Positions 19,234 to 54,050 of a stretch of DNA of 64,000 nt are shown piece by piece. This stretch comes from Desulfurococcales archaeon (GTDB lineage Archaea; Thermoproteota; Thermoprotei_A; Sulfolobales; AG1): positions 1 to 64,000 of the forward strand of contig WYEN01000095.1 in NCBI GenBank assembly GCA_009903825.1, given 5' to 3'. A program made the position numbers and the translations under genes. The notes beneath the pieces are model-generated. The model searched no databases and was not told where the DNA came from. It saw only the letters and a program-made list of their open reading frames with translations. How positions within the stretch are numbered: position 1 is the stretch's first letter; every line of letters starts with the position of its first letter.

Positions 19234-20007
19234 ATGAGAGTGATATCTATGTCTCAAGAGACTAGTGAAAAATTATTAAGCACAGGGTATATATGGGCGG
19301 CTACTTATGCTGACAAGATCAGAAGAACTGTATATGCTCAACTAAAAGATCTGTTGAAAGAGAATAAGGCGTTGAAAGATAATGTTCCCAGAGATATTGC
19401 ACAATTAAACTCAACCCTATATAAGTTGTTAGTAGAAGACCTCAAGCTTGAGAAGACAGATCTTGTTAGAATAAGAATTACATATACTATAAAAGATAAT
19501 AAAATTGAATGGAATCCAGAGAGTCTAACTGTTGAGGCATTCAGAAGAATATCTGAAGAGGAGATTAAGAGACATCTTGATAAATTAAAGTCAGAATGGA
19601 AAGAGAGACTTACAACAGGACTTGTCTATAAGCCTGAGCTTATAGGAGTTACAGAAGACGAAGATCAGGTTTATGTTTTAAAACTTAATGGAAACGAATA
19701 TGGTGCATTGATCTTGACCCCATTAAATGAAGAGATCTTTATTAAAAGAGGAGCTTTGATCTATCCGACGCCAATAATTTTTGAGAAAATTAGATTAAAG
19801 ATTGCTGGAAAGAAGATTGAAGAGGCTCTCACAGAGATCTTGAGAACGCCTGAGAATATAAAGACAATCTCTCCAACGGCTGTGATAAATTATGTGTCTG
19901 AAAGCGAGGCTTTGAAAATTGTCAATACACTAAGAGGCAGAGCTAAGGCTCCGCCTATTGAGAAACCAACTGTAGAGATAGAAGAGGAAATAGAAGAAGA
20001 GAAATAA
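19234..20007 (+). CDS. Archaeal conserved protein, DUF2258-like (257 aa)
   Basis: The N-terminus LLSTGYIWAATYADKIRRTVYAQL resembles what I recall of the crenarchaeal DUF2258 family (not searched). A helical N-terminal part is followed by a mixed alpha-beta middle (DLVRIRITYTIKDNKIEWNP; VYVLKLNGNEYGALIL). The final ~20 residues are strongly acidic (EIEEEIEEEK). The acidic tail and basic core suggest nucleic-acid or protein binding, but the function is unknown. ATG residue 1 or the inner ATG (residue 6, MSQETSEK) may start it. A C/D box RNA gene follows 25 nt downstream. Confidence 0.75.
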   Translation: MRVISMSQETSEKLLSTGYIWAATYADKIRRTVYAQLKDLLKENKALKDNVPRDIAQLNSTLYKLLVEDLKLEKTDLVRIRITYTIKDNKIEWNPESLTVEAFRRISEEEIKRHLDKLKSEWKERLTTGLVYKPELIGVTEDEDQVYVLKLNGNEYGALILTPLNEEIFIKRGALIYPTPIIFEKIRLKIAGKKIEEALTEILRTPENIKTISPTAVINYVSESEALKIVNTLRGRAKAPPIEKPTVEIEEEIEEEK

Positions 20008-20031
20008 TAATTTTTAGCTTTTATTTTTAAG

Positions 20032-20082
20032 ATGAAGACGAATCCGGGATCTGATTTCATGATGAAAGGCTTCGCATACTGA
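20032..20082 (+). ncRNA. C/D box small guide RNA (2'-O-methylation guide)
   Basis: The four boxes occur in order with textbook archaeal spacing: box C ATGAAGA at 20032-20038 (one mismatch to RTGATGA), 12-nt guide CGAATCCGGGAT, D' CTGA at 20051-20054, a 4-nt spacer, C' ATGATGA at 20059-20065 (perfect), 13-nt guide AAGGCTTCGCATA, and D CTGA at 20079-20082. The RNA directs fibrillarin/Nop5/L7Ae to 2'-O-methylate targets paired to each guide, at the fifth guide base from the D or D' box. It lies in a gap between two plus-strand genes. The AT-rich TTTTTAGCTTTTATTTTT just upstream may hold its promoter. Targets were not identified. Confidence 0.78.
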
Positions 20083-20148
20083 TCATATGATTATAATAAA
20101 ATGATTTGTCTAATCTTTAAATTATGAGTATTTAAATCTTCTTAAGGA

Positions 20149-20898
20149 ATGAATAAATTGACTAATCACGTGTTAAAATATCATGACATAATCAAAGATC
20201 TTTTGCAGAGAGTTATTACAGAAGAGATTATAAATATTGAGAGAGCCTCTGATCTTATCGTAGAAAGTTTCTTGAGAGGCGGTCTTCTTTATGTGTTTGG
20301 CACTGGACACTCTATGTTGATGAGTCTAGAACTTTTTCACAGAGCTGGCGGCCTGGTAAGGGTGTATCCTCTGATAGATCTTTCTTTGTTAGGCGTCAAT
20401 GGCGCATTAAAAGCTTCTTATCTAGAGAGATTAACTGGCTATGCCAGGGCTTTGTTAGCTTCTATCAACATAATTCCTGGTTCAGTGATGCTTATAATTT
20501 CAAATTCTGGAAAAAATGCAGGCCCTGTTGAAATGGCTTATGAGGCGTTGAGAAGAGGTATGAAGATTATAGCGGTGACATCTATAGAGTATTCAAAGAA
20601 ACTTCCTCCAGACAACTCTTTAGGCAAAAAACTATATGAGCTGGCTGATGTGGTGATAGATAATAAAGTTCCTGAGGGAGATGCTGTCGTTGAGATAGAG
20701 GGTCTTGATACAAAGATCGCCCCTGTCTCTACTATTGTAAATGCTTTCATACTTAATTCTATAGTGATTCGTGTTGTAGAGAAAAGTATTGAGAGAGGCA
20801 TTGAGCCTGAGGTATGGATGAGTTCTAACATACCAGGAGGTATTGAGAGAAATGAGAAATACAGAGAGAAATATATTAATATTATAAAGCCTTTATAA
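20149..20898 (+). CDS. SIS-domain phosphosugar-binding protein (UPF0309-like)
   Basis: A 249-residue single SIS domain: GGLLYVFGTGHSMLMSLELFHRAGG (phosphosugar loop), SVMLIISNSGKNAGPVEMAYEALRRGMKIIAVTS (second SIS motif) and the C-terminal VVEIEGLDTKIAPVSTIVNAFIL segment typical of the UPF0309 group. Related proteins are sugar-phosphate isomerases or MurNAc-6-P etherases; the substrate here is unknown. Monocistronic, with a start codon 66 nt after the C/D RNA. It is convergent with isocitrate dehydrogenase. Confidence 0.88.
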   Translation: MNKLTNHVLKYHDIIKDLLQRVITEEIINIERASDLIVESFLRGGLLYVFGTGHSMLMSLELFHRAGGLVRVYPLIDLSLLGVNGALKASYLERLTGYARALLASINIIPGSVMLIISNSGKNAGPVEMAYEALRRGMKIIAVTSIEYSKKLPPDNSLGKKLYELADVVIDNKVPEGDAVVEIEGLDTKIAPVSTIVNAFILNSIVIRVVEKSIERGIEPEVWMSSNIPGGIERNEKYREKYINIIKPL

Positions 20899-53753: not shown

Positions 53754-54050
53754 TGAGGCCGTCCGCGAGACTTACGGAGACCTTGTGTCTCCGAGGAAAC
53801 TCCGCCCTCGCCACGGCACCTGGCTCCGTAAGGAGAGCGGCTGAGAGCCGCTGGATCGGCACAGAAATGAACGGTCTGAGAGAGATGTAGATGATGGAGC
53901 TGGTCTCCTGATGATCTCTCAGATGCGGTGAGACAGCCGATCCCCAGGAGAGCAAGGCCGAATAGTGCCGATGAATGCCGTGGTGAGGCACAGGTAGGCC
54001 GCTTAGCCTAATGTCTCTAAGACAGAAGGCGGGTTATGCGGACGGCCTCA
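53754..54050 (+). ncRNA. rnpB: RNase P RNA
   Basis: A GC-rich island with conserved regions CR-I GAGGAAACTCCGCCC (53793-53807) and CR-V ACAGAAGGCGGGTTAT (54022-54037), whose CCGCC/GGCGG parts pair as helix P4. The ends pair as P1: the 16 bases from 53751 are the perfect complement of those at 54038-54053. This RNA cleaves the 5' leader of pre-tRNAs with archaeal Rpp proteins. AT-rich TATA-like sequence (ATTTAATAATGTATAAAA) lies 20-35 nt upstream. The stretch also contains open frames on both strands, which are meaningless given the RNA structure. Confidence 0.94.

Follow-up and report, generated by a model that had tools for sequence, protein, structure and literature searches.

Boxes and geometry of the locus

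The 141-bp gap at 20008-20148, as delimited by the ORF listing, separates a gene for a ThermoDBP-related protein from one for an SIS-domain protein in a 64,000-nucleotide stretch of contig WYEN01000095.1 (Desulfurococcales archaeon, assembly GCA_009903825.1), referred to here as the window. It carries the features collected in Table 1. Direct reading of 20032-20082 confirmed what the original prediction of a C/D box guide RNA had described: boxes C, D', C' and D in this order, guides of 12 and 13 nt, a 4-nt D'-C' spacer, exact consensus in D', C' and D, and one mismatch in box C. The locus thus has the four ordered, consensus-like boxes of a C/D box sRNA, with guides in the range of about 10-14 nt and a short spacer. 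The mismatch in box C is usual for this family, and position 5 of the box was A or G in 25 of the 27 class-wide matches described below and T in the other two. On the 3' side of the sRNA, the adjoining window positions 20084-20114 match another contig (G000:C95:6636-6666) over 31 bases at 87% identity; the match is AT-rich and may be of chance origin.

Table 1. Features in and around the gap, in window coordinates
Feature	Position	Strand	Remark
ThermoDBP-related protein gene, upstream	19234..20007	+	Stop codon to box C, 24 nt
C/D box sRNA gene	20028..20086	+	Limits of the original prediction retained
Box C, ATGAAGA	20032..20038	+	One mismatch to RTGATGA
D' guide CGAATCCGGGAT	20039..20050	+	Complement of tRNA-Gly(GCC) T-arm; N+5 = C50
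Box D', CTGA	20051..20054	+	Direct sequence reading
D'-C' spacer TTTC	20055..20058	+	Direct sequence reading
Box C', ATGATGA	20059..20065	+	Direct sequence reading
D guide AAGGCTTCGCATA	20066..20078	+	First 12 nt against tRNA-Gln(UUG) 24-35; N+5 = C27 (predicted)
Box D, CTGA	20079..20082	+	Direct sequence reading
SIS-domain (sugar isomerase domain) protein gene, downstream	20149..20898	+	Other end of the gap

Both strands of the window were scanned for the four boxes; guides could be 10-14 nt and the spacer 3-7 nt long, and at most two mismatches were tolerated over all boxes. The stretch 20032-20082 was the sole site found, and a separate scan that required an exact box D agreed with this result. 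Among 200 first-order Markov sequences, the mean number of sites with two or fewer mismatches was 0.035, and none of the 200 held a site with one or fewer. Together with conservation in the orthologous gap and over the class (see below), these controls make it extremely improbable that the boxes are a chance resemblance with no RNA product. Fold stability is the observation that would suit such a resemblance, since 187 of 200 shuffled sequences folded at least as well as the sRNA (z = 1.45); it is a weak indicator that says little for the C/D class.

Rfam reported six RNAs in the window at gathering thresholds, none of them at the sRNA locus. Below those thresholds, the listing for a 211-base stretch that includes the locus shows 29 matches, many of them to C/D families, some of which are eukaryotic. 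Two of the best E-values belong to sR33 (26.0 bits against a cut-off of 37, full length) and sR47 (23.3 bits against a cut-off of 40). Elsewhere in the window, Rfam places an archaeal RNase P RNA at 53757-54047 (183.3 bits).

Archaeal C/D sRNAs are bound by L7Ae, Nop5 and fibrillarin at the C/D and C'/D' motifs. The genome has one match each to fibrillarin and Nop5 over the cut-off. The two genes lie side by side at C15:83990-85502, with Nop5 at 84.0 and fibrillarin at 84.8 kb of the contig that also carries the sRNA, about 64 kb downstream of it. A transcript of the locus would be expected to assemble with L7Ae, Nop5 and fibrillarin at both motifs.

Recurrence in related genomes

The ThermoDBP-related gene is present in all six genomes of the family, those of the window and of five relatives (G001-G005), and the sRNA follows it in four of the six (the window's, G005, G003 and G004). 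A DNA search of these genomes first revealed the D' half in G001, G003 and G004. In G005, which belongs to the same genus, the sRNA lies in the gap with both guides recognisable; the class-wide pattern missed it because box D' reads CCGA there. The sRNA of G001 is located about 40 kb from the ThermoDBP-related gene on the same contig, and in G002 neither the pattern nor visual inspection of about 400 nt of the gap showed one. The conserved boxes sought in the orthologous gap were therefore there, along with both guides, in G005, G003 and G004, and not in G001 or G002.

To cover the class, we used a pattern made up of boxes C and D' plus the greater part of the D' guide, with C or T permitted opposite G53 of the tRNA described below. 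Counting the window's own genome, 27 of 229 genomes matched; they represent 15 of 87 genera and include all 11 genomes of genus g41; an exact match was absent from the other 202 genomes. The reversed pattern gave no match in the class, and an estimate from equal base frequencies predicts far below one chance match in the 229 genomes. CTGA was located 10-20 nt beyond the best C' in 22 of the 27 matches and not in the remaining five.

An earlier D' pattern, applied to a genome contig collection of 257 billion bases, gave 20 stretches, 15 of which are titled Ignisphaera, Desulfurococcaceae/Desulfurococcales or Sulfolobales. By our estimate from equal base frequencies, about four chance matches are expected in a collection of this size, and L073 (Thermoplasmatales) is the likeliest one among the 20. 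No CTGA occurs in the expected range after C' in five of these stretches (L065, L073, L077, L079 and L081); they were excluded from alignment A1, whose 18 sequences are the window, G003, G004 and the other 15 matches. The 20-stretch and 27-genome sets are not independent, because many of their loci coincide. Boxes, geometry and recurrence in relatives all support the predicted C/D box guide RNA, and on this evidence the locus is almost certainly a genuine gene of that class.

The D' guide and tRNA C50

The D' guide pairs at 12 of 12 positions, one of them G-U, with nucleotides 46-57 in the T-arm of tRNA-Gly(GCC), and the N+5 nucleotide from box D' is C50 when the tRNA is numbered manually, starting from its T-arm. 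The tRNA set of the genome comprised 45 matches (one partial) with 43 distinct sequences, and the score of 23 that the guide reached against the latter was equalled by none of 400 shuffled guides. Opposite the 10 nt of the guide nearest D', seven of the 45 genes carry ATCCCGGGTT, namely Gly(GCC), two Gly(TCC), Gly(CCC), Arg(TCG), Arg(CCG) and an intron-containing gene whose ARAGORN label, Ser, looks doubtful. Eight further tRNA genes carry GTCCCGGGTT, which adds a second G-U. The T-arm string TCCCGGGTTCRAANCCCGG was present in all 15 homolog-bearing genomes searched, which correspond to 15 of the 20 contig-collection matches; because this is a common T-arm, its presence discriminates little.

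Position C50 also has a precedent. In the available part of PMC7668247, C50 of tRNA-Gly(CCC) in S. acidocaldarius is stated, as an observation, to be a C/D target. A literature search on Cm50 with archaeal tRNA or sRNA gave no paper, though PMC7668247 treats C50 in other words, and the available parts of PMC12247713 and PMC9014305 contain nothing on this guide.

G53 of the tRNA faces a U of the D' guide as a wobble pair. This U was found in 27 of 27 class-wide matches even though the pattern permitted C, and because of this invariance another, perfectly matched target is possible, that is, a non-tRNA RNA holding UCCCGGAUUC with which the guide would pair without wobble. The sole full complement match in the window is the gene's own other strand, and there is none in the genome's 16S and 23S loci or in the 23S of G001, G002 and G005. 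The tRNA site, on the other hand, beats all shuffles and involves a tRNA-Gly nucleotide reported for Sulfolobus in the available part of PMC7668247. A main target outside tRNA is thus improbable, and tRNA C50 is the likely target of the D' guide. The guide would pair with tRNA-Gly(GCC) 46-57, and with the identical T-arm letters of other tRNAs, in such a way that C50, the fifth nucleotide from D', would receive the 2'-O-methyl group.

The D guide and tRNA-Gln

The first 12 nt of the D guide pair at 12 of 12 positions, three of them G-U, with nucleotides 24-35 of tRNA-Gln(UUG). Each guide is thereby complementary to a stable RNA right next to its D' or D box, at 12 of 12 positions in tRNA-Gly and in tRNA-Gln, respectively. 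The 12-nt stretch of the D guide was picked after the match had been seen; its score against tRNA-Gln was reached by 4 of 400 shuffles and, in a repeat, by none of 500, and that of the full 13-mer by 6 of 400. For the window and for G003/G004, counting from box D gives C27 as the N+5 nucleotide. In G005 the predicted site is G26, because box D is one nucleotide further away.

The string GATGCGGGGCTTT is common to the tRNA-Gln genes read in G001-G004. In G005, G001, G003, G002 and G004, the tRNA-Gln genes (L135, L140, L141, L142 and L143, respectively) look interrupted, either within the anticodon or immediately behind it, with introns as the probable cause; the gene of the window's genome is uninterrupted, and that of G005 is broken in the anticodon loop.

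Outside this group the D side differs. The D guide of G001 is unrelated and has no good tRNA fit (19 of 200 shuffles). Six g41 genomes have a similar stretch right beside C', and this layout is at odds with the N+5 rule because box D stands 6-9 nt beyond the stretch; four of those tested (L063, L074, L076 and L078) fit tRNA-Glu of the window's genome better than its tRNA-Gln. In all, 14 D-guide stretches from relatives, chosen by eye, were scored against the tRNAs of the window's genome and not their own. The numbers of shuffles that reached the score, of 200 each, were 21 for L063, 9 for L065, 37 for L066, 191 for L069, 9 for L070, 115 for L071, 155 for L072, 4 for L074, 88 for L075, 0 for L076, 2 for L078, 11 for L079, 19 for L006 and 6 for L008, the last obtained from a stretch with an extra 5' A. 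The D guides of the other relatives had no tRNA fit above chance among the window genome's tRNAs.

Such variation is what would be expected if only the D' guide worked, on tRNA C50, with the D guide targetless and drifting. Over the class, the sequence and length of the D guide vary widely; several relatives' D guides do no better than shuffles (L069, L072, L071 and L075 above); and the tRNA-targeting sRNAs of Pyrobaculum have one tRNA guide and another without a target, according to the available part of a review (PMC7994747). Against a single working guide stands the behaviour of the D guide close to the window. Its versions in G005 and G003/G004 differ from the window's at three positions, each a C/U exchange opposite G, and still pair at 12 of 12 positions with tRNA-Gln (scores reached by 2 and 5 of 500 shuffles). 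Of the 36 single substitutions in the window's D guide, no more than 9 leave every pair intact. We therefore consider a single working guide rather unlikely, if less so than a non-tRNA target of D'.

With tRNA-Gln as the probable, though not firm, target of the D guide, the guide would pair with tRNA-Gln(UUG) 24-35, so that C27 would be the fifth nucleotide from D. Within the window's family we take the match for a real contact; its chemistry elsewhere is uncertain. For the D guide, the original prediction that both guides are probably functional goes beyond the evidence.

Search for rRNA targets

Both guides of the window were also compared with rRNA, namely the genome's own 16S and 23S and the 23S of G001, G002 and G005; no 23S match was obtained for G003 and G004. 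The best scores were 13-16, where full pairing gives 24 and 26, and all of these sites were mismatched. The targets had been predicted to lie in rRNA or tRNA. The tRNA part of that prediction holds, with D' directed to tRNA-Gly C50 and D to tRNA-Gln(UUG), and the rRNA part found no good match. In the available part of PMC4644070, 163 of 489 archaeal C/D sRNAs have no significant complementarity to rRNA, and many of them fit tRNAs or 5S rRNA.

The own 16S gene (L003, contig C44 50873-53873) spans 3001 bases against 1478 in the model, and the own 23S gene (L004, contig C44 45735-50705) spans 4971 against 2987; the 23S match of G005 spans 3230. Because the spans exceed the models, inserts of about 1.5 and 2 kb, introns or of another kind, are probable in the own genes. 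An rRNA target split by an intron could for the same reason escape the search.

Discussion

The sRNA belongs to a well-known class and is ordinary in kind, although a tRNA fit for both guides is mildly unusual. On balance we lean towards a C/D box sRNA in which both guides work and are directed at tRNAs. A wider version is more tentative and rather doubtful: one sRNA would guide modification of two tRNA regions, the first at C50 in the T-arm, in tRNA-Gly among others, the second in the anticodon arm of tRNA-Gln, at C27 or G26, and in Ignisphaera-type relatives the second complement would stand off box D, in some cases closer to tRNA-Glu. If this is true, the second complement in those relatives would be a tRNA-binding or chaperone element and not an N+5 methylation guide.

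The closest counterpart in function is an S. acidocaldarius sRNA said to target C50 of tRNA-Gly(CCC) (snoRNAdb, cited in the available part of PMC7668247), for which the tRNA family, position and chemistry are the same as those predicted for the D' guide; the two are likened by reported target and not by sRNA sequence. Another relative system is sR33 (RF01120). It matches the locus full length, its boxes and D' guide are similar in the printed alignment, the second guide matches poorly, the locus stays below the gathering score, and a target of sR33 was not found.

Lui et al. (2018) reportedly described C/D sRNAs of Pyrobaculum that target tRNAs. Like the D' guide, these aim a guide at a conserved region of several tRNAs; their second guide is targetless, whereas both guides of the present locus fit tRNAs (PMC7994747, available part). 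If both guides work, the locus would be a modest exception to the single-guide description given there for Pyrobaculum.

The locus adds a guide RNA that the curated thresholds of Rfam miss, and ties an sRNA to a methylation site, tRNA-Gly C50, reported in Sulfolobus. The D' guide is kept nearly letter for letter in 15 of 87 genera while the D guide turns over, which makes this sRNA well suited to the question of what freezes one guide and lets the other drift.
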